Part shown: piece by piece, positions 2,764 to 23,529 of the stretch | How the letters are laid out: every line of letters starts with the position of its first letter | Numbering within the stretch: the first letter of the stretch is position 1 | Source of the DNA: Microbacterium invictum | Lineage (GTDB): Bacteria; Actinomycetota; Actinomycetes; Actinomycetales; Microbacteriaceae | Length of the DNA: 64,000 nt | Reading direction: 5' to 3' | Assembly (NCBI RefSeq): GCF_014197265.1 | Contig: NZ_JACIFH010000001.1 | Location: 2,170,001-2,234,000 of the forward strand | Program-made: the position numbers and the translations under genes | The notes under the pieces: model-generated | Told to the model about the DNA's origin: nothing | Database searches by the model: none | What the model saw: the letters and a program-made list of their open reading frames with translations, nothing else

Positions 2764-3489
2764 ATGGCCCCGCTCGTCTACGTCTGCGCACGTCCGCAAC
2801 CAGATGCCGCAGCCGCCGAGTACGAGTCGTTCCGCACCAGCGCACGCGTCGGCACCGACGAGATGGAGCGCCTGGACCTCGTCCACGACGACCTGCCCGA
2901 TGACGCCTTCGAGCGCTGGCGCGGCTTCGTCGTGGGCGGCAGCCCGTTCAACGCGACCGACCCCGAGTCGACCAAGACCGGCGATCAGCTGCGGCTGGAA
3001 GCCTCACTCGCGCGCATCGCACGGGCGGCGGCGGCCGCCGAGACGGCGGCGCTGTTCACGTGCTTCGGTATCGGCGTGGCCGCGCGGGCGCTCGGCGGCG
3101 AGGTGAGCCGCGGGTATCCCGAGAACACCGGGCCGACCACGATCACGCTGACGGCCGAAGCCGACCGCGACCCGGTGTTCGGCGGGCTGGCGCACACGTT
3201 CTCCGCTCTGACCGCGCACAAGGAGGGCACCGCCCGGCTGCCCGACGGGGCTGTACTGCTGGCCACCAACGAGGCATGCCCCGTGCAGGCGTTCCGCATC
3301 GGCGACCGGCTGTACGCCACCCAGTTCCACCCCGAGCCGACCGCGCAGGCGTTCGTCGACCGCATGGCGGTGTACCGCAACGACGGCTATTTCGACGCGG
3401 GGCACTTCGATCAGATCTCGGGGCGCGTGCTCGCGGCATCCCTCAGCGAACCTGCTCGGATTCTGCAGGCGTTCGCGCGGAACTTCTGA
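2764..3489 (+). CDS. Class I glutamine amidotransferase domain protein
   Basis: A 241-residue stand-alone class I (triad) glutamine amidotransferase. The nucleophile elbow is LFTCFGIG (C100), and the His/Glu pair is TQFHPEPT (H189, E191). Stand-alone members often annotated as GMP synthase-like act on small metabolites such as gamma-glutamyl compounds; the substrate cannot be read from the sequence. It is divergent from the sigma factor operon (gap 2645-2763 carries both promoters). Its last 47 bases overlap the 3' end of the convergent TspO-like gene. Confidence 0.88.
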   Translation: MAPLVYVCARPQPDAAAAEYESFRTSARVGTDEMERLDLVHDDLPDDAFERWRGFVVGGSPFNATDPESTKTGDQLRLEASLARIARAAAAAETAALFTCFGIGVAARALGGEVSRGYPENTGPTTITLTAEADRDPVFGGLAHTFSALTAHKEGTARLPDGAVLLATNEACPVQAFRIGDRLYATQFHPEPTAQAFVDRMAVYRNDGYFDAGHFDQISGRVLAASLSEPARILQAFARNF

Positions 3490-4282
3490 ACCCGGTGGAG
3501 TGGATGCCGGTGATGCGCATCACCAGCGGCACGACGACCACGATCGCCGCGGCGATCCATGCGGTCACGGCGACAGGCGTCGAGTCGGGTTCGTCGGTTG
3601 TGCGTGCGACGCCGATCCACACGAGCCCCCACGCCATCGCCAGTCCGGGGGCGAGCCGGCCGCGGGTGCCCCACGCGATCGCGACGCCGAGGAGGGCGAC
3701 AACTACGAGCACGGCGATGCCCCACGCGTCGGACGCCGCCTCGGACTGCGCGGGCACGACCTCGGCGGCCAGCCACGCCGTCACATTCGCGACCGTCGCC
3801 AGTGACACCCAGCCCAGGTGCAGGCCGACGGTGGCGTCCGCGAAGACGATGTCGGTCCAGCGCCCGGAAGGGTGCACCACCAGGATGCGGATCGTCACGG
3901 ACAGCGCCGCCACCAGCAGCACGATCACGACGACGGTGGCCGGCAGGTTCAAGAACTGCGCGGCCAGCAGCCAGCACCCGTTGAGGACGGCCGTCACGGC
4001 GATCCACCAGCCGGCCGCGCGCTGACGCTCACGGGCGCGCTGGCCGGGGAGCGCCTGCCACACTGCGTAGGCGATCATGAGCACGTAGATGAGGCTCCAG
4101 ATGCTGAACGCCTGACGGCCGGGCGAGAGCACGGTGGAGTCGGCGTCGAGCGCACCGCCCTGCAGCTCACGGACGTTCGTGCCGCCGAACAGGCCCACCC
4201 CCACCATGGCGGCGATGATCATGAACACGACCGCCGCGATGACGACGATCTGACGGGCAAGGTCGCGCGGTTCAGCTCTCAT
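3443..4282 (-). CDS. TspO/MBR-like (tryptophan-rich sensory) membrane protein
   Basis: A 279-residue integral membrane protein with several hydrophobic helices. Features of actinobacterial TspO/MBR-type proteins are SIWSLIYVLMIAYAVW (around residue 60), NGCWLLAAQFLNL and WVSLATVANVTAWLAA, with Trp residues concentrated in the membrane segments. TspO proteins bind porphyrins or isoprenoids; the ligand here is unknown. The ATG at 4282 is preceded by CGGAGACC. The gene is longer than classical TspO (about 160 residues), as is usual for this actinobacterial branch. A 0.4 kb tandem repeat array lies directly upstream. Confidence 0.78.
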   Translation of the reverse strand: MRAEPRDLARQIVVIAAVVFMIIAAMVGVGLFGGTNVRELQGGALDADSTVLSPGRQAFSIWSLIYVLMIAYAVWQALPGQRARERQRAAGWWIAVTAVLNGCWLLAAQFLNLPATVVVIVLLVAALSVTIRILVVHPSGRWTDIVFADATVGLHLGWVSLATVANVTAWLAAEVVPAQSEAASDAWGIAVLVVVALLGVAIAWGTRGRLAPGLAMAWGLVWIGVARTTDEPDSTPVAVTAWIAAAIVVVVPLVMRITGIHSTGFRSSARTPAESEQVR

Positions 4283-4367
4283 GGTCTCCGACGGTATCGG
4301 CGCGACGGGTGGGCTTGCAGGGGGTTGACACGCCGCGGCGGGTGCGACACGCGGTGCCTCCCGCCGC

Positions 4368-4680
4368 CGAGGTGGCCGTTCCCCCTCTTTGCCGAGATGG
4401 CCGTTCCCACGCCGAGATGGCCGTTCCCCCTCTTTGCCGAGATGGCCGTTCCCACGCCGAGATGGCCGTTCCCACGCCGAGGTGGCCGGCCACCTCGCGG
4501 CAAGAGTGGCCACCTCGCGGTAGGAGCGGCCACCTCGCGGTAAGAGCGGCCACCTCGCGGTAAGAGCGGCCACCTCGCGGTAAGAGCGGCCACCTCGCGG
4601 TAAGAGTGGCCACCTGGGCGCAAGAGCGGCCACCTCGCGGTAGGAGTGGCCACCTCGGCGCAAGAGTGGCCACCTCGGCG
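4368..4680. repeat. Convergent 20-bp tandem repeat array with GGCCACCTCG core
   Basis: Fills the 408-base gap between treZ (ends 4691) and the TspO-like gene (starts 4282). Ten units begin GGCCACCTCG at 4488, 4508, 4528 and so on to 4668, an exact 20-base period; the other half of the unit is usually CGGTAAGAGC. To the left, six inverted copies (CGAGRTGGCC) start at 4368, 4393, 4413, 4438, 4458 and 4478, with 20- or 25-base spacing. The two halves meet in a perfect 20-base palindrome at 4478-4497. It is not CRISPR-like because the unit is short and the spacers are conserved. A second array with the same core lies at 19124-19258. Confidence 0.95.
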
Positions 4681-4690
4681 CCCGGGCGGC

Positions 4691-6427
4691 TCAGCGGGGC
4701 GGGCCGGTGACCAGGGCCGCGTCGGGCGGAATGACCCAGGTGCCGCCGACCCGGCCGGGCTCGGCGGTCGCGATCCAGACCTCCTCGCCGGGGCGCGCTG
4801 CGACGTGCCACGGCTCGGCCGACAGATTCACGAGCACGCGCGCGGCGCCGCGGTCGAGTTCGAAGCGCCGCCCGCCGGGGGCCTCTGCGGCTGCCGCCCC
4901 CCGCTGCCCATGGCGCGGGTCGGTCAGCTCGGGGCGTTCCCGGCGCAGCGCCGCGAGCCGGCGGTGGAGGTCGAGCAGTCGCGCGTGGTCCCCGGCATCC
5001 ACTTCGTCCCAGTCCAGCTTCGATCGCTCGAACGTCGCCGGGTCGTTCGGGTCGGGGACGAGCGATCCATCCCATCCCATGCGCGCGAACTCCGCCTTGC
5101 GGCCGTTCGCGGTCGCGGCGGCCAGCTCGGGCTCGGGATGCGAGGTGAAGAACTGCCAGGGGGTGGATGCGCCCCATTCCTCGCCCATGAAGAGCATCGG
5201 CGTGCCCGGAGCGGTGAGGGTGAGGACGGCCGCGATCGCGAGACGGTCGTAGGACAGGGTCGCGCTCAGCCGGTCGCCGGCGGCGCGGTTACCGATCTGG
5301 TCGTGGTCCTGGGCGAAGGTGATCAGCTGCCAGCTGGGCACCTCGGGCGGCAGAGGGATGCCGTGGTCGCGGCCCCGGAAGGACGAGCGGGTGCCATCGT
5401 GGAAGAACCCGCCGGTCCACACCTTGGGCAGCGCCACGAGTTCGGCGAAGTCGGCGTAGTAGCCGGCCGTCTCGCCGGTGAGCGCGACGTGGACGGCGTG
5501 GTGCCAGTCGTCCGACCACTGCGCGGTCAGGCCGTAGCCGCCGGCGGTGCGCGGCAGGATCATGACCGGGTCGTTGAGGTCGCTCTCGGCGATGAGGGTG
5601 AGCGGGCGCCCGAGGTGCGCGCTGAGCGCGTCGACGCGTTCGGCGAGCTCGGCCAGGATGTGCTGCGGCTGATCTCCGGACTCGTGCAGGGCGTGGACGG
5701 CGTCGAGGCGCAGGCCGTCGACGTGGAAGTCGCCCAGCCACATCAGCGCGTTGTCCACGATGTAGTCGCGGACGGCGCGCTCGTCGAGGTTCACGCTGTC
5801 ACCCCAGGTGTTGCGGTGCCCGTCGCGCAGGTAGGGGCCGAACTCGGGCAGGTAGTTGCCGGACGGGCCGAGGTGGTTGTAGACGACGTCCTGGATGACG
5901 GCGAGGCCACGGCCATGGGCGGCATCGACGAAACGCCGGTAGGCGGCCGGGCCGCCGTACGGTTCGTGCACGGCGTACCAGAGGACGCCGTCATAGCCCC
6001 AGTTGTGGGTGCCGTTGAAGGCGTTGACCGGCAGCAGCTCGACGTGTGTGACGCCGAGGTCGACGAGGTGGTCGAGCCTGCCGATGGCGGCGTCGAGGGT
6101 GCCCTCGGGGGTGAACGTGCCGATGTGGAGCTCGTAGATGAGGCCCCCGGCGAGCGGGCGACCGTGCCACTGCGCGTCGGTCCAGGCGAAGGATGCCGGA
6201 TCGACATGCGCGGAGGGGCCGTGGACACCCGCAGGCTGACGGCGCGACCGGGGGTCGGGGCGCAGCTGGTCTGCCTCGCCGAGCACGAACCCGTACTCGT
6301 CGCCGTCGGCGAGCGCGACGGGTGATCGCCACCATCCGTCGTCTCCCGTCGCCGTCAGGTCGGCGTCGGGCAGGTCTGGTCGGCGCAGCCGCACGCGCGT
6401 GGCATAGGGAGCCCACACCTCGATCAT
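4691..6427 (-). CDS. treZ: Malto-oligosyltrehalose trehalohydrolase TreZ
   Basis: A 578-residue GH13 enzyme that releases trehalose from malto-oligosyltrehalose, the last step of the TreX-TreY-TreZ route from glycogen. The N-terminal beta domain (1-90) precedes the barrel, with [14 protein letters not shown] near 98-110, [14 protein letters not shown] near 180-193, the nucleophile in [11 protein letters not shown] (D242) and the acid/base in LIAESDLND (E281). The ATG at 6427 has AAGGAGTCCG and overlaps the treY stop by four bases (ATGA). It is the last gene of the trehalose operon; the 20-bp array starts right after its stop. Confidence 0.96.
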
Positions 6428-11589: not shown

Positions 11590-12786
11590 TCACGCGTGGT
11601 CGTCGGCGAGTTCCGCCGACGTCGAGCGTTCGCCGCGCAGCGACATCGCGATGAGGGGGAACAGCAGCACCGACAGCATGCCGGCACCGACGAGCACCGA
11701 TGCGGCGGCGCTGGAGAGCAGCCCCTCGTCGACGCCGATGGCGGTGACGGCGACGATGATCGGCAGGCCGGTCGCGCCCAGGAGCATGATCGACAGCCGG
11801 TCGCGGCCGGTCGACCCTTCGGGGGCGGCGAGCATCGAGGGCAGGCCGCGGACCACCAGCAGCACGATCAAGACGACCGGGACCATCGCGAGCAGGATCG
11901 GGTCGTCCAGCAGCGACTTCAGATCGAACGTGACGCCGGTGTAGATGAAGAACAGCGGCACGAGGAAGCCGAACGCGAGCGCCTCGACCTTACTCTCGAC
12001 CACCTCCTGCGCATCGGCGTCGGCGTCGCGCATGAGCAGGCGCCAGACGATGCCGGCCGCGAATGCGCCGAGCAGGATGTCGAGGTCGAGCACGGCGCTG
12101 AGCCCCACGAGGGCGATGAGGATCAGCATCACGACCCGGACGGCGAACTGCCCGGAGGTGTGCAGCGTCGCGGTCACGAACGCGTGCAGGCGGCCCTGCG
12201 GTGCCTTGAGCGCGTACCAGATCGCGGCGGCGGCGATCACGAGGAAACCGGCGAGCACGAGGGTTGCGACGCCGGGGTTGCGCCCGCCCAGCAGCACCGA
12301 GATGGCCACCAGCGGACCGAACTCGCCGACCGCGCCCAGGGCGCCGACGGCGCGGCCGAATGGAGTGCGCATCTCGCCGGCGTCGCGCAGAATCGGCAGG
12401 AGCGTGCCGAGCGCGGTGGATGCCAGGGCGACGCCGATGACGATCGCTCCTTCGCCCGGGACGAGGACCCAGCCCAGCGCCGTGCCGGCCACGATGCTGA
12501 TGAGCCAGCCGCCGATCGCGCGGCCGCCGGTGCGTCCCCGCAGGGCGGAGAACTCGATCTCGGTGCCGGCCACGAAGAACAGCATCGCCAGGCCGAGCTC
12601 TGAGAGCAGGTCGATGAACTCGGAGGGCTGCGCCCAGCCCAGCAGGCTCGGGCCGACGACGATGCCCAGCACGAGCTCGAACACCACGACCGGAATGCGC
12701 AACCACGGGCCGATCGCGCGGGCCGCCAGCGGAGCGAGCACGGCCAGCAGCGGGATCAGTACGAACGTGCTGGAGAAGTGTTCCAC
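11590..12786 (-). CDS. Cation:proton antiporter, CPA2 (KefB-like) family
   Basis: A 398-residue integral membrane protein made of about 12 hydrophobic helices with no C-terminal TrkA-N/RCK domain, so it is a membrane-only CPA2 exchanger. Family signatures include FELVLGIVVGPSLLGW (around 36-51), LGLAMLFFVAGTEIE (64-78) and VALASTALGTLLPILRD. It probably exchanges Na+ or K+ for protons; the ion is not deducible. The start is GTG at 12786, just downstream of a TAGTCT element, which suggests a leaderless or short-leader transcript. Its promoter abuts a GC-rich tandem repeat. Confidence 0.88.
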   Translation of the reverse strand: MEHFSSTFVLIPLLAVLAPLAARAIGPWLRIPVVVFELVLGIVVGPSLLGWAQPSEFIDLLSELGLAMLFFVAGTEIEFSALRGRTGGRAIGGWLISIVAGTALGWVLVPGEGAIVIGVALASTALGTLLPILRDAGEMRTPFGRAVGALGAVGEFGPLVAISVLLGGRNPGVATLVLAGFLVIAAAAIWYALKAPQGRLHAFVTATLHTSGQFAVRVVMLILIALVGLSAVLDLDILLGAFAAGIVWRLLMRDADADAQEVVESKVEALAFGFLVPLFFIYTGVTFDLKSLLDDPILLAMVPVVLIVLLVVRGLPSMLAAPEGSTGRDRLSIMLLGATGLPIIVAVTAIGVDEGLLSSAAASVLVGAGMLSVLLFPLIAMSLRGERSTSAELADDHA

Positions 12787-12802
12787 GCCGAAAGACTAGA
12801 CC

Positions 12803-12950
12803 GCGGGCGGTGCGGCGCGCGGGCGGTGCGGCGCGCGGGTTGGTGCGGCGCGCGGGTTGGTGCGGGCGGTGCGGCGCACGGGCGGTGCGGGCGGTGCGGC
12901 GCGCGGGCGGTGCGGCGCGCGGGCGGTGCGGGTCGCGGGTTCGCCGGCAC
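12803..12950. repeat. GC-rich 16-bp tandem repeat
   Basis: Imperfect tandem copies of GCGGGCGGTGCGGCGC, interspersed with 9-10-base partial units (GCGGGTTGGT, ACGGGCGGT). The tract lies between the xylB stop (12967) and the antiporter start (12786). It encodes nothing I can support. It may have grown by slippage; its position over the antiporter upstream region could influence transcription. Confidence 0.85.
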
Positions 12951-12966: not shown

Positions 12967-14277
12967 TCAGGACGTGGCGAGGACGCGAGCGGCCTGGCGC
13001 GCGGCGCCCAGCGCCACGTACTCGGCCGGCGCGGGCACCTCGACCGGAACGCCCAGCACCTGCGGGGCGATCTCCCGGACGGCATCGGACTGCGCGCCGC
13101 CGCCGATCAGCAGCGCACGCTCGATCGGCACACCGAGCTCGCGCACCGCGTCGAGCCCCGCGGCGAGTCCGGACAGCATGCCCTCGACGGCCGCGCGGGC
13201 GAGATTCTCTCGGGTGGTGGATGCCAGGGTCATGCCGGTCAGCTCGGCCGTGGCGTCGGGCAGGTTCGGGGTGCGTTCGCCCTCGAAGTACGGGACGAGC
13301 GTCAGCCCGCCGGCACCGGGCTGCGCGGCGAGCGCGAGCCGGCTGAGTTCGGTATGGCCGACGCCGAGCAGGCGACCGATCGCGTCGAGCACGCGGGCGG
13401 CGTTGAGGGTCGCGACGAGCGGAAGGAAGTGGCCGTCGGCCGACGCGAAGCCCGCGACGCTGCCGGTCGGGTCGATCGTGCGGTGCTCGCTGACGGCGAA
13501 GACGGTGCCGCTCGTGCCGATCGACACGACGACGTCACCGGGGCCCGCGCCCACTCCCAGGGCGGCGGCGGCGTTGTCGCCCGCGCCAGGACCGACGCGG
13601 CGTCCGGCCTCGTCGAGCACGAACTCGTCGGGGCCGAGCACGCGCGGGAGACCCGCATCGTGGCCGAGCGCGGCGATCAGCAGATCGCGGTCGTAGTCGC
13701 CGGTCTCGGGGTTCCAGTACCCGGTGCCCGAGGCGTCGGACCGGTCGGTCACCAGCTCGTCGAGGCCCGGGCTCTCTGCGCCGCCGGGCGCCACCGGGCC
13801 GAACCCGCGCATCCGCCAGGTGAGCCAGTCGTGCGGCAGCGCGACGGCCGCGACGCGCGCCGCATTCTCGGGCTCGTTGTCGCGCAGCCAGCGCAGTTTG
13901 GTGATGGTGAAGGATGCCACGGGCACGACGCCGCTGCGCTGCGCGAGCTGCTCCGCACCGAACTCGGCGATGAGGTCGGCCGCCGCACCGGCCGAGCGGG
14001 TGTCGTTCCACAGCAGCGCGTCACGGATGACCCGGCCGTCGACGTCGAGCGCCACCATGCCGTGCTGCTGACCCCCGATCGCCCACGCGTCCACGTCGTC
14101 GAGGCCACCGGCATCCACGATCGCGTCTTGCAGCGCCGTCCACCATGCTTCGGGGTCGACCGAGGTGCCGTCGGGGTGCGTGGCACGGCCGGTGCGCACG
14201 ATCTCGCCGGTCTCGGCGTCGTAGACGACGACCTTGCACGACTGCGTCGACGAGTCGACGCCCATCACGAGTGCCAT
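12967..14277 (-). CDS. xylB: Xylulokinase
   Basis: A 436-residue FGGY-family kinase that phosphorylates D-xylulose to xylulose 5-phosphate for the pentose phosphate pathway. It shows the N-terminal ATPase motif [16 protein letters not shown], the [11 protein letters not shown] substrate loop, LLWNDTRS, the catalytic Asp in [13 protein letters not shown], and the second phosphate loop [14 protein letters not shown]. The C-terminal [11 protein letters not shown] segment is also typical. The length is slightly short of the usual 480-500 residues. The ATG at 14277 has GAGAGAGG upstream. It lies 224 bases after xylA in the same direction, separated by a hairpin and a G-rich tract. Confidence 0.94.
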
Positions 14278-14305
14278 GCCGGCATCCTCTCTCTCATTCC
14301 TCCAC

Positions 14306-14344
14306 GCCCCTCCCCCCGCGCCCCTCCCCCGCGCCCCTCCCCCC
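14306..14344 (-). promoter_or_regulatory. G-rich tract (possible G-quadruplex) in the xylB leader
   Basis: On the xylB coding strand this stretch is three near-repeats of GCGGGGGGAGGGGC, giving at least six runs of four or more G within 40 bases, about 30 bases upstream of the xylB start. It satisfies the usual G-quadruplex pattern. A role in controlling xylB expression is inference. Confidence 0.55.
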
Positions 14345-14357
14345 ACGATCCTTCCCC

Positions 14358-14426
14358 GCGAGAGAACAACGGGCGGACGAGAGAACGGTTGTTACCCGTT
14401 CTCTCGGCCGCGAGTTGTTCTCTCGC
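14358..14426. repeat. Nested inverted repeats between xylA and xylB
   Basis: The outer arms GCGAGAGAACAAC (14358-14370) and GTTGTTCTCTCGC (14414-14426) are perfect complements. They enclose an inner 11-bp hairpin, CGAGAGAACGG (14378-14388) and CCGTTCTCTCG (14396-14406), with a 7-base loop. The motif GAGAGAAC therefore occurs four times in mirrored pairs. It could terminate or attenuate transcription between xylA and xylB, or bind a regulator twice. No U-rich tail is present. Confidence 0.8.
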
Positions 14427-14501
14427 CGACGAGGGCGGCCGACGAGGGTGGGCGACGACGGCGGGCGACGTGGGGGGCGGCGGCGATGTCAGCGGGTCGG
14501 G

Positions 14502-18080: not shown

Positions 18081-19088
18081 ATGACGCCCACGACCAGGGT
18101 CACCCTTGCCGAGATCGCGGCGGAAGCCGGCGTCTCGCTCGCCACGATGTCGAAGGTCCTCAACGGCCGCACCGACGTCGCACCGGCGACTCGCGCGCGG
18201 CTCGAGGAGCACCTGAACCGCCACGGCTACACGCGGCGCAACTCTGCACAGCGCTCGGAAACGCTCGAACTCGTCTTCCACGAGCTCGAGTCGAGCTGGT
18301 CGATGGAGGTCATCGCGGGCGTCGAGACTGCGGTGCACGCCGCAGGCCTGTCGGTCGTGCTGACCGTCAGCGGCGACCGGCACGCCCCCTCGCCCGACTG
18401 GATCGACGGCGTGCTGCGGCGACGCCCTGTCGGCGTCGTGCTCGTGTTCTCGGACCTCGCCCGCGCACATCGCGAGAAGCTGCGTTCCCGCGGCGTCCCC
18501 TTCGCGATCGTCGACCCGGCCGGAGACCCGGCGCCGGATGTGCCGTCGGTGGGCTCGGCGAACTGGTCGGGCGGCGTCATGGCGACCCGCCACCTCATCG
18601 AACTCGGACACCGTCGCATCGCGGCCATCACGGGGCCGGAGGACATGATGTGCTCGCTCGCGCGAGTGGACGGCTACCGCTCGGCGATGAACGCGGCGAA
18701 CCTCCCGATCGATCCGCGCTGGATCCGCTTCGGCGACTTCCACCCCACCGGCGGCGAGACGCACGGCCGCGACCTGCTAGCCGGACCCGACCGCCCGACG
18801 GCGATCTTCGCAGGCAGCGACCTGCAGGCGCTCGGGGTCATCGCCGCGGCGCGGGCGGCCGGCCTGAGCGTGCCGGGGGACCTCTCGGTGGTCGGGTACG
18901 ACGACATCGCGCTCGCACGATGGCTGAGCCCGCAGCTCACGACGGTGCACCAGCCGCTGCGCCGCATGGGCGAGGAAGCCGCGCGACTGGTGCTCCGGCT
19001 CGCGGAGGGCGAGACCGTCGACACGCTCCGGATGGATCTCGCCACACACCTCGTGGTTCGCGGCAGCACCGCACCCGTTCCCGCCTGA
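18081..19088 (+). CDS. LacI-family transcriptional regulator of the xylan locus
   Basis: A 335-residue LacI repressor. The helix-turn-helix is residues 7-30 (VTLAEIAAEAGVSLATMSKV) with hinge helix near 48-58. The periplasmic-binding-like ligand domain follows, with characteristic GHRRIAAITGPEDM, RVDGYRSAM and DLSVVGYDDIALARWLSPQLTTV segments. The likely inducer is xylose or a xylo-oligosaccharide, inferred from its place between the GH43 and xylanase genes. GGAG lies 11 bases before the ATG. CGAAA-type boxes lie upstream of this gene, the xylanase and the ABC transporter. Confidence 0.92.
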   Translation: MTPTTRVTLAEIAAEAGVSLATMSKVLNGRTDVAPATRARLEEHLNRHGYTRRNSAQRSETLELVFHELESSWSMEVIAGVETAVHAAGLSVVLTVSGDRHAPSPDWIDGVLRRRPVGVVLVFSDLARAHREKLRSRGVPFAIVDPAGDPAPDVPSVGSANWSGGVMATRHLIELGHRRIAAITGPEDMMCSLARVDGYRSAMNAANLPIDPRWIRFGDFHPTGGETHGRDLLAGPDRPTAIFAGSDLQALGVIAAARAAGLSVPGDLSVVGYDDIALARWLSPQLTTVHQPLRRMGEEAARLVLRLAEGETVDTLRMDLATHLVVRGSTAPVPA

Positions 19089-19123: not shown

Positions 19124-19258
19124 GTGGCCACCTCGAGCGCTCCGTGGCCACCTCGAGTTGCATGTGGCCGCCTCGAGTTACATGTGGCCACCTCGAGTTG
19201 CGCGTGGCCACCTCGAGTTGCATGTGGCCACCTCGAGTGCGCGATGGCCACCTCGAGT
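19124..19258. repeat. 20-bp tandem repeat array with GGCCACCTCG core (second locus)
   Basis: Lies in the 307-base gap between the LacI gene (ends 19088) and the xylanase (starts 19396). Seven units begin GGCCACCTCG (one variant GGCCGCCTCG) at 19126, 19146, 19166, 19186, 19206, 19226 and 19246, an exact 20-base period, mostly as GGCCACCTCGAGTTGCATGT. Period and core equal those of the array at 4368-4680, but the other ten bases differ. All units point the same way here. No coding potential is supported. Confidence 0.95.
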
Positions 19259-19286
19259 GCGCTCGAGAGGCGGTCACGCGCGCGGG

Positions 19287-19395: not shown

Positions 19396-22300
19396 GTGAG
19401 AACCCGAACGTCCCGCGTCCTCTCCGCCCTCATCGCCGCGACGGCGCTCGCACTCGCTCCGGTCGTGGCGCCGGCCGCCGTCGCAGCACCGGCGCCTTCT
19501 GAGCCGCCCGTTCCCGAGGGGCACGCCGTCGTCTCGTGGAGCGATTTCGAGGGCGCCGGCGTCGACCCGTGGACGGTGCGAGGCTCCGGCACGCTCGCCC
19601 TCGACGCCGATGCGCACTCCGGTGCGCAGGCGCTGAAGATCACCGGGCGTACGGCGAGCTGGAACGGCCCGGCGCTCCCCGGCTCGCTTCTGGCAGAAGG
19701 CACCTATCACGTCTCCGGCTGGGTCAAGCTCGCCGCCGGTCAGACCCCCGCCGAGCTCAATTTCGGCGTCAACCAGCCCGGTGCCGGCAACGAGTACCCC
19801 TGGGTCGGTTCGCGCACCGCGGTGACCGACGCAGAGTGGGTCGAGCTGGCCGGCGACTTCACCGTCGACCCCGACCATCTGCCCACTGCGCTGTATCTCG
19901 AGTCCACGAGCGCGACCGCCGAGTTCCTGGTCGACGACGTGCTCATCAGCCAAGCGGCCCCCGAGACCTGCGAGCCGACCGTGACACCGGTCGTCAGCGC
20001 CGACTTCACCGACGCCGCACTGCCCGCCGAGCTCCGTCAGAGCGGCGGTGGCGCGGGCACGCTCACCTTTGCCGACGGGGCGCTCATGGTCAACGACCGC
20101 GACGCCGACTACGTGGGGATCGAAACGGTGCCGGGGCTCCTCGAGACCGGGACGGAGTACACGGTCAGCGCCAAAGTGAAGCTCGCGCCCGAGACGCCGG
20201 CGACGCAAGCACGGTGGATCGGCTTCCCCGGCTACAACTGGGTCGGAAACGCCGACGTGACCGCCGGCGATTGGACGACGATCACCGGGACCTGGGTCTC
20301 CCCCACCGCCGACGATCCCTCGACGATCCGGTTCTACATCGGCACGCAGGACATCACCGGCGTCGCCGCCTACACCTACCTCGTCGACGACGTCCTCATC
20401 ACCGCCACGGTCGACGAGTGCGACGAAGGCCCGGCGCAGGAGCCCGGCACGGTCCTCATCGACGAGGACTTCGAGGACGAGGACCTCGGCGGCTGGTTCG
20501 CCCGCCAGGGTGGCGATTCCACGAACCCGACGGTGAGCGTCGTCGCCGGCGGCGCTGCCGGCACCGGCTTCGCGGCGCAGGTCTCCGACCGCACCCACGA
20601 GGGCGACGGCGTTCAGTTCGACGTCAAGGACGTGCTGCTTCCCGGTGAGACCTACGAGCTCGAGGCCTACGTGCGGTTCGCACCCGGCGCGGAGGTCGGC
20701 CGCGGCCTGACCGTCTCGATGCGCACCGTCACCGGCACCTCGCAGGCCTTCGGCAACCTGATCCAGGTCGAAGACGCGACCGCGACGGGCTGGACGAAGG
20801 TCGCCGGCCGGTTCACGGTGCCGAGCTACGACACGAACGCGGAGCTGTACGTCGAAGCGCGCTACAACAGCGGCAACACGTCCACCTTCCTCGTCGATGA
20901 GATCACGGTGCGGGTGCCCGAGCCCGACCTGGTCGACACGAGCCTGGTGCCCGTGAAGGACACCGTGGACTTCCCCGCCGGCGTCGCGATCGACTCCCGC
21001 GAGACCACCGGAGCGGCCGCCGAGCTGCTGCTGCACCACTTCGACCAGATCACTCCCGAGAACCACATGAAGGTCGAGGCCTGGTATGACGCGGACGGCG
21101 ACTTCCAGCGTCACGCCGAGGCCACGGCCCTGCTCGACTTCGCGCAGGCCAACGAGCTCGGTCTCTACGGGCACGTGCTGGTGTGGCATTCGCAGACACC
21201 GGACTGGTTCTTCCAGGACGACACCGGCCGCGAGCTGACGGCGTCCGACGCCGACAAGCAGCTCCTGCGCGACCGCCTGGCCCGGCACATCGACGACATC
21301 GCGAGCTCCATCGCCGCTGAGTACGGCCCGTACGGCTCGGACACCAACCCGATCATCGGCTGGGACGTCGTCAACGAGGTCGTCGCCGACCAGACCACCT
21401 CCGACGGACTCCGCACGAGCCGCTGGTACCAGGTGCTCGGCGAGGAGTACATCCACCTGGCGTTCGAGCTGGCCGACGCGGCCTTCAACGAGACATATGC
21501 CGCAGACGGCATTGACCGTCCGGTGAAGCTGTTCATCAACGACTACAACACCGAGCAGGATCGCAAGGGCGCGCAGTACGAAGCGCTCGTGAAGAGGCTG
21601 CTGGATGCCGGGGTCCCCCTCGACGGGGTCGGCCACCAGTTCCACGTGTCGATCAACACCGCCATCGCCTCGCTCGACGCGGCGCTGGACCGCTTCGAGG
21701 GTCTCGGACTGCTGCAGGAGGTCACCGAGCTCGACGTCACGATCAATCCGGCGACCGAGCCCAACCTCATCCGCCAGGGTCACTTCTACCGCGACGTGTT
21801 CACCCTGCTGCGCGACTACGACGCGTCCGCACCGGCGGAAGAGAAGATCTTCGCCGCGACGGTGTGGGGACTCACCGACACCCGCTCGTGGCGCGCCGAG
21901 CAGCAGCCGCTCCTGTTCACCGGCGACCTGCAGGCCAAGCCCGCCTACTTCGGCGCGGTCGATGACGCCGACGGGCTGCCGGCCCTGGTGACGACCGCGA
22001 ACGTGTTCGGCGGCGACGTCGCGCTGGAAGACGGCTTCACCGACGCGATCGAGTGGAAGAACCTCCCCGAGAACCCGCTGACCTCGGATGCCGGGGGCTT
22101 CCAGACCCGCTGGAACGACGATCACCTGACGGTGCTCGTGCGCACCACGGCGGACCCCGAGCGGATCGAGTTCACCTACGGTGACCAGGAGCTCTTCTAC
22201 GAGGAGGGGGTCGCCGGCTCGGTCGCCGGCATCCACTCCGCCGTCGGCGGACAGCACTTCATCGCGGTGCACCTGCCGCACGAGGGCGCCGCCGTCGGGT

Positions 22301-23529
22301 CATCCACCACGTTCGACGTGCGGGTGATCGCCGCGGGCGTGGTCGCCGGGGCGTGGAACTCACCCGGCGCGACCGGTCGGCTCACGTTCCTCGAGCCGCT
22401 GTCGTTCCTGGAGATCCCGCAGCTGCCGGCGCCGACCGTCGACGGGACCGTCGACGACGCATGGGCCGATGCGGCGGTCGTCACCACCGCGCGGACCGTG
22501 GAGGGCAGCGCCGAGGGCGCGAAGGCGCAGGTGCGCACGCTCTGGGACGACCAGCGGCTGTACGTCCTGTTCGACGTGACCGACCCCGTCATCGACAGCA
22601 GCAACAGCGACCCCTGGAACCAGGACTCGGTCGAGCTGTTCCTCGACCTGGGCAACTCGAAGTCGGGCCCCTACGGTCCGAACGACACGCAGATCCGCGT
22701 GACGCTCGACGGCGCCCTGTCGTTCGGGACGGGGGATGCCGCGGCGCAGGCCGCGCGGGTCGCCGAGCGCGCCACGGCGCTGACCGATACCGGATACGTC
22801 GTCGAGCTGGCGGTCGAGCTGGTCGGCCAGTCCGGCGGCCAGAGCGATGTGCCGCTGGGCGGGCTCGACACCTTCCACGGCATCGACTTCCAGGTCAACG
22901 ACGGTCGAGACGGTGCACGGTACGCCGTGCATACCTGGGCCGAGCCGACGGGCACGGGCTACCAGAACACCGCACGGTGGGGTGCCGCGCAGCTCGTGGC
23001 CGCGGACGACGGTGAGCCTGGGGAACCGGGCGAACCCGGAGAACCTGGCGAGCCCGGTGAGCCCGGCGAGCCCGGCGAGCCCGGTGAGCCCGGTGAGCCC
23101 GGTCAACCTGGCGAGCCCGGGGAACCGGGAGAAACCGGGGCCGCGTGGGCCACGGTCGACGTCGGCACGGGTCGCGTCGAACAGGGCGGCACGCTGCCCG
23201 TGACCCTCACCGGCCTGGAGCCGGGTCAGCAGGTCTCGGCCACGCTGTTCAGCGACCCGATCGTGATCACCGGCATCCCGGCCGCGGACGCCACTGGGCG
23301 GACCGCGTTCACCGTGGCGATCCCGGCGGATCTGCCGCTGGGCACGCATACCCTCGTGATCGAGTCGGGCGATCTCGACGCGATCAGCGTCACCGTCACC
23401 GTCGTCGCCCCCGGTCAGCTGGCGGTCACCGGGGCCCAGGTGCCGTGGGGCATCGCGCTCGCGGCTGCCGTGCTGCTCACGCTCGGCGGCCTGCTGGTGT
23501 ACCTCCGCCCCCGCAGCCGGATGAGCTGA
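19396..23529 (+). CDS. Cell-surface multidomain GH10 endo-xylanase with sorting signal
   Basis: A 1377-residue secreted enzyme with GTG start at 19396 behind AAAGGAGCG. Order: signal peptide (about 1-35), three CBM4/9-type carbohydrate-binding modules (about 45-190, 192-350, 352-515), GH10 barrel (about 519-865) with acid/base E661 in WDVVNEVV and nucleophile E778 in VTELDV, a less clear beta-rich region, a CBM9-like module (about 1014-1200), a Gly-Glu-Pro triplet linker (about 1206-1247) and an Ig-like module. The C-terminus has LAVTG (1342-1346), a hydrophobic helix and a basic tail, the arrangement of class E sortase substrates. It depolymerises xylan at the cell surface. It follows the LacI gene and ends in a strong hairpin. 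Confidence 0.95.
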   Translation: MRTRTSRVLSALIAATALALAPVVAPAAVAAPAPSEPPVPEGHAVVSWSDFEGAGVDPWTVRGSGTLALDADAHSGAQALKITGRTASWNGPALPGSLLAEGTYHVSGWVKLAAGQTPAELNFGVNQPGAGNEYPWVGSRTAVTDAEWVELAGDFTVDPDHLPTALYLESTSATAEFLVDDVLISQAAPETCEPTVTPVVSADFTDAALPAELRQSGGGAGTLTFADGALMVNDRDADYVGIETVPGLLETGTEYTVSAKVKLAPETPATQARWIGFPGYNWVGNADVTAGDWTTITGTWVSPTADDPSTIRFYIGTQDITGVAAYTYLVDDVLITATVDECDEGPAQEPGTVLIDEDFEDEDLGGWFARQGGDSTNPTVSVVAGGAAGTGFAAQVSDRTHEGDGVQFDVKDVLLPGETYELEAYVRFAPGAEVGRGLTVSMRTVTGTSQAFGNLIQVEDATATGWTKVAGRFTVPSYDTNAELYVEARYNSGNTSTFLVDEITVRVPEPDLVDTSLVPVKDTVDFPAGVAIDSRETTGAAAELLLHHFDQITPENHMKVEAWYDADGDFQRHAEATALLDFAQANELGLYGHVLVWHSQTPDWFFQDDTGRELTASDADKQLLRDRLARHIDDIASSIAAEYGPYGSDTNPIIGWDVVNEVVADQTTSDGLRTSRWYQVLGEEYIHLAFELADAAFNETYAADGIDRPVKLFINDYNTEQDRKGAQYEALVKRLLDAGVPLDGVGHQFHVSINTAIASLDAALDRFEGLGLLQEVTELDVTINPATEPNLIRQGHFYRDVFTLLRDYDASAPAEEKIFAATVWGLTDTRSWRAEQQPLLFTGDLQAKPAYFGAVDDADGLPALVTTANVFGGDVALEDGFTDAIEWKNLPENPLTSDAGGFQTRWNDDHLTVLVRTTADPERIEFTYGDQELFYEEGVAGSVAGIHSAVGGQHFIAVHLPHEGAAVGSSTTFDVRVIAAGVVAGAWNSPGATGRLTFLEPLSFLEIPQLPAPTVDGTVDDAWADAAVVTTARTVEGSAEGAKAQVRTLWDDQRLYVLFDVTDPVIDSSNSDPWNQDSVELFLDLGNSKSGPYGPNDTQIRVTLDGALSFGTGDAAAQAARVAERATALTDTGYVVELAVELVGQSGGQSDVPLGGLDTFHGIDFQVNDGRDGARYAVHTWAEPTGTGYQNTARWGAAQLVAADDGEPGEPGEPGEPGEPGEPGEPGEPGEPGEPGQPGEPGEPGETGAAWATVDVGTGRVEQGGTLPVTLTGLEPGQQVSATLFSDPIVITGIPAADATGRTAFTVAIPADLPLGTHTLVIESGDLDAISVTVTVVAPGQLAVTGAQVPWGIALAAAVLLTLGGLLVYLRPRSRMS

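Follow-up and report, generated by a model that had tools for sequence, protein, structure and literature searches.

Two groups of intergenic tandem repeats in a 64-kb window of the Microbacterium invictum genome (the window being the whole stretch of DNA analysed, 64 000 nucleotides) belong to a dispersed set of arrays whose units share a short core, repeat about every two helical turns, and are often arranged as two arms that point inwards, mostly just past the 3′ ends of genes. Other species of the genus have arrays of this architecture too, with a core word that differs from lineage to lineage. Tentatively, and as a reading we consider quite possible, we suggest that the arrays are phased rows of binding sites for a predicted, lineage-specific DNA-binding protein and form a two-sided boundary; the protein, its binding to DNA rather than RNA, its cooperativity and its effect on transcription are what we infer from the arrangement of the repeats.

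Structure of the two arrays in the window

The initial annotation had described two intergenic arrays with an exact 20-bp period, and both exist, with direct units that are exactly 20-periodic, ten in array 1 and seven in array 2. The features of the two loci, with genes called by a simple codon-usage script, are as follows.

3443..4282, − strand: gene on the side of array 1 away from the alpha-amylase gene, with a weak TspO/MBR match (just above the cut-off)
4368..4477, − strand: left inverted arm of array 1, five units CGAGRTGGCC-GTTCCCMCKC as read on the + strand
4478..4497, no strand: junction of array 1, a perfect 20-base palindrome CGAGGTGGCCGGCCACCTCG, made of CGAGGTGGCC and GGCCACCTCG, where the arms meet without a spacer
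4488..4687, + strand: right direct arm of array 1, ten units, 20-bp period
4691..6427, − strand: alpha-amylase family gene, treZ-like by position (name inferred), 3′ end 13 nt from the last core of array 1
18081..19088, + strand: LacI-family regulator gene, stop codon 37 nt before array 2
19126..19265, + strand: array 2, seven direct units, single arm
19396..23529, + strand: GH10 family gene that also encodes carbohydrate-binding domains, lying downstream of array 2 (start codon at 19396 read by eye; the domain scan took 19465–23529)

The direct units of array 1, which as a whole spans 4368–4687, start at 4488, 4508 and so on to 4668, in steps of exactly 20 bp, and their cores are GGCCACCTCG except for one GGCCACCTGG. 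Six inverted copies ending in a perfect palindrome had also been claimed; there are indeed six inverted cores (starts 4368, 4393, 4413, 4438, 4458 and 4478) and the palindrome stands at 4478–4497, but four of the six cores are GGCCATCTCG rather than GGCCACCTCG and their steps are 25, 20, 25, 20 and 20 bp. The left-arm units read CGAGRTGGCC on the + strand. The seven cores of array 2 (19126–19265) start at 19126 to 19246, again exactly 20 bp apart, and are GGCCACCTCG with the exception of one GGCCGCCTCG. The second halves of the units do differ by array, as had been noted, but the forms quoted for them are merely the commonest, CGGTAAGAGC in three of the ten direct units of array 1 and AGTTGCATGT in two of the seven of array 2. 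Over the entire window the core was matched 47 times with at most one mismatch, compared with 14.7 ± 3.5 times in shuffled sequence, where 0 of 100 shuffles reached 47.

The gene at 4691..6427 is the last of three consecutive alpha-amylase family genes. Other repeats were also seen in the window: a GC-rich 16-bp tandem repeat of 8.4 copies, CGCGGGCGGTGCGGCG, at 12802–12939 in the gap between the genes at 11590–12786 and 12967–14277; two more C- or G-rich repeats (13/14/27 bp and 13/26 bp) at 14297–14479, in the gap 14278–14501 between genes; and a 9/18/27-bp repeat at 23010–23138 that encodes a collagen-like stretch of the GH10 protein.

Arrays in the host genome

The closed 3.58-Mb genome of the host contains nine array loci, near 0.306, 1.667, 1.723, 2.040, 2.117, 2.124, 2.174, 2.189 and 3.244 Mb, a few chance pairs aside, and by our own count six of the nine are two-armed. 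Random spacing of the core, which the initial annotation had named as speaking against it, was not what we found: two cores 20 bp apart (at most three mismatches) gave 67 matches genome-wide against 3 for the reversed control pattern. Solitary 10-mer cores are also numerous (137 matches in total against 18 for the reversed control), and the copies in arrays are the minority. The right cores are mostly GGCCACCTCG; the left cores vary, being GGCCATCTCG, GGCCGTCTCG or GGCCACCTCG, and GGCCAGGTCG in the 0.306-Mb array.

Several simple identities were rejected. Clustering at the replication terminus was considered because seven of the nine loci lie at 1.67–2.19 Mb, but dnaA is at 2.60 Mb, which places them along one replichore instead of around the terminus. 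A DNA uptake sequence is contradicted by the mere 137 genomic copies of the 10-mer core. CRISPR arrays consist of direct repeats with longer unique spacers and accompanying cas genes; here the period is 20 bp with 10-bp spacers, and an Rfam scan of the 64-kb window at the gathering threshold gave no match, so that a known structured RNA family was rejected as well.

Arrays in related genomes

The initial annotation had named the absence of arrays from all relatives as a second point against it; the architecture is there, while the exact core is nearly private to the host and the word changes with the lineage. Three host units (at most three mismatches) were found in four of 366 genomes of the genus, the host included, and in the species-genome collection three GGCSANCTCG units at 20 bp matched 13 stretches, 11 of them in M. 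telephonicum, one in a Microbacterium MAG and one in Actinomyces dentalis. Tandem units starting with CGAG, nearly always 20–22 bp apart, are nevertheless found in no fewer than 14 further species of the genus. A search for five CGAG at 20 bp matched 36 of the 366 genomes; about a dozen of these have several matches and an empty control, and in the others the control matched equally often, so that different repeats are involved there. Ten genomes (G000, which is the host, G105, G106, G116, G121, G122, G165, G214, G244 and G282) have at least seven matches, on both strands and with an empty control, array numbers per genome being lower bounds here and in the scan that follows. Thirteen genomes picked for high counts were scanned with CGAGNNNGCC, with gaps of 6–20 bp left free, and their recurrent arrays step 20, 21 or 22 bp; single matches were seen at 18 bp (G054, G119), 24 bp (G101) and 19 bp (G209), the last being an intergenic array at L217, where coding status was checked.

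In a class-wide sample of 384 genomes, 21 matched five CGAG at 20 bp. Among the matches listed, a genome outside the genus had either a single 20-bp locus or repeats of 5 and 10 bp, and none carried dispersed 20-bp arrays. Other Microbacteriaceae had single loci (11 of 398 matched, some chance-like).

The word that follows CGAG is GTGGCC or ATGGCC (RTGGCC) in the host, TTCGCC in M. telephonicum, GTCGCC in G054, CTTGCC in G209, GCAGCC in G244, CATGCC in both G101 and G119, GGTGCC in G123 (21/22 bp) and G190 (21 bp), GTCGTA in G105, RTTGTC in G106, and TTGTCC in G165 and G214; G116 has the word TGAGTATT, and G121 and G122 have ATGGTGGG. On a tree built from 1.75 kb of rpsJ-region sequence in 27 genomes, and displayed without support values, the array-bearing species are scattered, and such scattered occurrence across the genus implies that the array system is dispensable. 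The sisters G101 and G119 have one common word; G123 and G190 share GGTGCC, yet are not sisters on this tree.

Several neighbouring or similar structures were observed. G190 bears two array classes alongside one another, CGAGGGTGCC with a period of 21 bp and CGAGATGGTG with one of 20 bp (e.g. C1:1026239 and C1:3995157), and A. dentalis has a two-armed look-alike of about 20 bp (L076 6980–7130; CGAGCACGTC left, GGCGATCTCGCGGGTTACCC right). In other Microbacteriaceae and in G123, arrays of period 20–22 adjoin inverted-repeat elements of the CTTCGACAAGCTCAGGGACCGAG type (L087 1380–1700, L086 1490–1600; L186 and L190 near 2440–2550), which suggests a possible route of array birth. In two other genera the 20-bp unit holds the apparent stop codon of the neighbouring gene (L083 1495–1560, L084 1490–1560), so that the array would be a tandem copy of the gene's own end. 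Arrays of G209 (L212–L214) lie near contig ends beside TGATGTCTCAGGACAT-type sequence resembling an insertion-sequence end, so that the assemblies break there. A phage origin was rejected, since the 20-bp three-unit pattern matches just two stretches of the viral collection, one a look-alike 20-bp array through which no reading frame was found and the other inside an open frame; the look-alike, in viral contig IMGVR_UViG_3300037470_000143 (L224 1900–2015), has about six 20-bp units CGGCCGCCTCKGCCCCTGCC directly behind a hairpin-like sequence. The 21-bp version of the pattern matched 93 viral stretches, which are taken to be mostly coding repeats since 21 is a multiple of three.

Polarity, period and position of the arrays

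Arms reading CGAG...GCC were designated A and their complement B, and 87 arrays from nine species were scored, five of 92 rows having been dropped beforehand because they lie inside called genes; at least two of the 87 are chance-like (G123 L197:10340; G054 L204:4776, 19-bp steps). There were 38 AB, one ABA, 26 A alone, 22 B alone and no BA. Six further species with other words contributed 22 arrays, namely nine AB (one of which rests on a single B core), one BA, nine A and three B. Arms of constant orientation with one flip were thus seen in 48 of the 49 two-armed arrays (47 AB and one BA), the lone ABA flipping twice. Many of the single arms in the four species examined have a decayed partner arm, and the arm-to-arm distance at the junction varies among species.

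The claim that the period is close to two helical turns was borne out. Neighbouring cores are 20, 21 or 22 bp apart in 447 of 461 pairs from the nine species (20 in 244, 21 in 164, 22 in 39), a tally in which arrays less than 120 bp apart may count twice and which is unbiased for seven species alone, as their loci were fetched with periods of 16–30 allowed and those of the host, M. telephonicum and the second species set with a fixed 20-bp pattern. The remaining spacings are 17, 25–27, 32, 40, 42 or 60 bp; the host exceptions are 25–27 and 32 bp, and among them two 25-bp steps in array 1 and the 26-bp steps of the 305-kb array are off the two-turn phase. The 19-bp array of G209 (L217) stands outside this tally. 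The six further species, found by the fixed 20-bp search, have a spacing of mostly 20.

By gap type the 87 arrays comprise 31 in convergent, 41 in tandem and 10 in divergent gaps, with 5 at a locus edge. As a circular genome has equal numbers of convergent and divergent gaps, 31 against 10 represents a skew to gene ends. Of the first arms that are of type A, 43 of 64 face the 3′ end of a gene, as do 41 of 60 last arms of type B, whereas outer arms of the opposite type are not biased in this way (11 of 20 and 12 of 25). Among 19 single arms in tandem gaps, 14 run from CGAG to GCC in the sense of the upstream gene; at the site upstream of rpsJ, the A arm of G123 is antisense to its neighbour gene.

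Core conservation and a predicted two-sided boundary

Since the array search forced CGAG and GCC, the three bases between them, which were left free, served as the measure of core conservation. Between arrays of one species the mismatch at these three positions was 0.02–0.40, compared with 0.38–0.59 in the spacer, and it was lower in all nine species (0.02 against 0.47 in G190), which upholds the earlier view of a conserved core with a variable half. RNA duplexes formed by the two arms of the same array were stronger than the average duplex with foreign arms in 18 of 37 arrays, so that arm-to-arm pairing beyond the core is not visibly selected; taken with the conservation of the core and the decay of the spacer, this argues that the core is kept by something acting genome-wide. 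A hairpin needs self-complementarity alone and not one word throughout a genome, and the conservation of the core therefore counts for reading by a protein.

One word per genome, spacer decay, a spacing of about two turns and inward arms behind genes together point to a trans-acting reader of DNA and to a two-sided boundary. The cooperative DNA-binding protein of the initial annotation is thus retained, as a prediction; the lineage-specific cores, the inward two-armed arrays and their position mostly behind gene 3′ ends had not been foreseen. The predicted protein would read the core (CGAG-RTG-GCC in the host) and would sit on one face of the helix at every second turn, and so could bind cooperatively along the arm. 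Inward arms behind the ends of transcription units may then constitute a boundary that, from either side, halts or retards RNA polymerase on its way out of the flanking genes, and that would substitute for, or supplement, an ordinary hairpin terminator. Counting against this reading are the steps that are off the two-turn phase, the variable distance between arms at the junction, the sense orientation of no more than 14 of 19 single arms, the antisense arm of G123 and the scattered occurrence of the arrays over the genus.

Orthologous sites and the hairpin alternative

Arrays of period 20–22 with six different units lie upstream of rpsJ in six of 27 scored genomes (the host, M. telephonicum (G770), G123, G122, G244 and G017, whose unit starts CGAA rather than CGAG). 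The site was chosen because arrays of the host, M. telephonicum and G123 pointed there, so that the independent finds are G017, G122 and G244; G121, in which the anchor is absent, was unscored, and period-12 flags in G209, G190 and G001 were left out of the arrays. Elsewhere, the same gap with both flanks known holds different words in M. telephonicum and G054, and again in G054 and G119, and a gap with one flank known has arrays in M. telephonicum and G209.

One of the two main alternatives, unlikely in our estimation, is that the arrays are hairpin terminators acting at the RNA level, with arms lengthened through tandem duplication and with no dedicated protein; the transcript of either flanking gene would fold arm on arm and so halt the polymerase or shield the 3′ end. 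In accordance with this, sense arms lie close to gene ends, the array beginning within 60 nt of the stop codon in 69 of 84 cases (median about 23 nt), and the RNA of both arrays in the window folds more strongly than shuffles (z −10.9 for array 1, −5.2 for array 2), strong folding of a whole two-armed array being what an inverted repeat must give. At the rpsJ site a hairpin of −29 kcal/mol or lower was found in 17 of 21 non-array genomes against one of six array genomes, within a scored 200 nt that may reach into the neighbour gene, and G190, where others have arrays or ordinary hairpins, has a single A and a single B of its other unit, CGAGATGGTGGG, forming a hairpin of −47.6 kcal/mol. A wider comparison of 74 array ends with 30 control convergent ends showed no clear difference and gave no support for terminator replacement, which thus rests on one site: the median best hairpin was −26.2 kcal/mol at array ends and −29.2 at control ends (n=30), against −24.0 in shuffles (n=30), so that array ends are not the stronger. 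Nor was a stem-loop followed by a T run, as in an intrinsic terminator, found in the scanned region of array 1 (4200–4800).

The sequences of the arms also bear on RNA pairing. The figure of 18 in 37 means no better pairing overall within arrays, but the average is better in G123, G054 and G209. In all nine species the spacers of the two opposing arms of an array are less alike than the spacers of separate arrays, and in the host the core triplets of left and right arms differ (0.35, against 0.04 within an arm). In G054 and G209 the triplets of opposite arms are closer to each other than those of different arrays (0.10 against 0.34, and 0.00 against 0.40), a likeness that would also be expected from pairing or from local homogenization. 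Several arrays are apparently one-armed, and hairpin formation predicts neither a single core per genome nor a fixed period.

Mobile or mutation-driven repeats, and the search for a partner protein

We regard as doubtful the second main alternative, in which the arrays are selfish or mutation-driven repeats that spread within a lineage by copying, expand by slippage, are tolerated mainly behind genes and serve no cellular function. The patchy distribution (36 of 366 genomes) is compatible with it, as are the apparent stop codon within the unit in two other genera, which local duplication predicts, and the four G209 contigs that end near arrays; REP elements likewise lie near gene ends, according to the accessible text of PMC3733652. 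The retention of the core while the spacer decays, in nine of nine species, is unlike neutral decay, however, and random spread would in our judgement rarely yield shared gaps (two with both flanks known, a third with one) together with the six of 27 at the rpsJ site. The inward polarity, 48 to 1 with ABA counted as inward, is a further difficulty.

Also against this alternative, a REP-associated tyrosine transposase (Y1, PF01797) was found under none of 22 genome handles, ten of them array-bearing (21 distinct genomes if G358 and G770, whose coordinates are identical, are the same), whereas the control search was positive in Escherichia coli and four others. According to the part of PMC3733652 available, REPs of the CGTC type have no transposase of their own either, so the absence of Y1 alone does not exclude that type. 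Clustering of neighbour genes gave no clear recurrent family beside the arrays. The widest cluster, of six genes from five species at 0–2319 bp, has no clear adjacency to them, and a neighbour gene as the reader of the array was rejected for that reason; of the four rpsJ-type neighbours, three gave no hit in Pfam and one is a transposase of the Mutator type.

Folded singly, the units of 11 of 15 species do no better than their shuffles (z 0.4 to 4.6), those of G116 (z −2.5) and G105 (−2.3) do somewhat better, and those of G122 (−1.8) and G106 (−1.2) slightly better. BIME-like topological sinks, to which gyrase or some other topoisomerase is drawn where positive supercoiling builds up at gene ends, chiefly between convergent genes, would suit the 31 to 10 excess of convergent over divergent gaps and have a parallel in the tandem extragenic units of BIME-2 that bind gyrase (PMC2817692, in its accessible part), but are highly improbable here, since gyrase is conserved and a lineage-specific core would be unexpected, most arrays lie outside convergent gaps, and the units lack the REP stem-loop in those 11 of 15 species.

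Change of the word between lineages

Returning to the predicted DNA-binding protein and its two-sided boundaries, it is interesting to speculate on how the words diverged. A more far-reaching hypothesis, which we put forward as speculation and think rather unlikely as it stands, is that Microbacterium has a system of dialects marking the ends of transcription units: a fast-evolving predicted DNA-binding protein and its two-armed arrays would change word together across the chromosome, with some array positions staying in place, so that each lineage has its own word at inherited sites. If true, this would parallel in bacteria the way in which satellite repeats turn over in concert with the protein that binds them, and it would be a case of a two-sided boundary between bacterial transcription units that is based on protein. 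A shared architecture with a lineage-specific word points to a trans-acting reader co-evolving with dispersed sites. With a word common to two sister species, mostly different words farther off and different words at an orthologous site, the arrays are a rare case in which the concerted evolution of regulatory DNA can be traced across many sequenced species. Two-sided boundaries, if that is what the arrays are, would give high-GC bacteria a further way to end transcription.

Comparison with known systems

A literature search among papers outside subscription found no description of such arrays, and none appears in the accessible portion of PMC4060949. The arrays resemble REP and BIME elements, palindromes tagged GTAG or CGTC, which are likewise extragenic and lineage-specific, in tens of dispersed copies near gene ends, mostly in convergent or unidirectional gaps and with inverted pairs, as far as the available text of PMC3733652 and PMC2817692 goes; in the latter BIME-2 units are also tandem. 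The arrays share with REPs their extragenic location (five of 92 rows being in called genes), their place beside gene 3′ ends and their lineage specificity. They differ in that a REP is a palindromic stem-loop with an unpaired tag, whereas the array units of 11 of 15 species form no stem-loop; in that the REPs of a BIME alternate, whereas array arms are constant and flip once; in having no Y1 transposase in the genomes searched; and in a period near two helical turns. The first three of these differences led to the rejection of a typical REP or BIME.

Three other kinds of element were compared. MIRU-type VNTR loci are intergenic tandem repeats of variable copy number, but the loci described here are tied together within a genome by a short core and a period that they have in common, and their arms point inwards. 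Iteron-like operator arrays at replication or partition origins have direct repeats about two turns apart with a conserved core, but the present arrays lie at many dispersed loci behind gene ends, with no clearly recurrent neighbour family. Uptake words form inverted pairs near gene ends and stand solitary or paired in large numbers, whereas the present loci are few and each consists of a tandem array. What the arrays do have in common with the uptake-sequence dialects of the Neisseriaceae, as these are presented in the accessible part of PMC3630211, is a short word that changes between species on a common skeleton.
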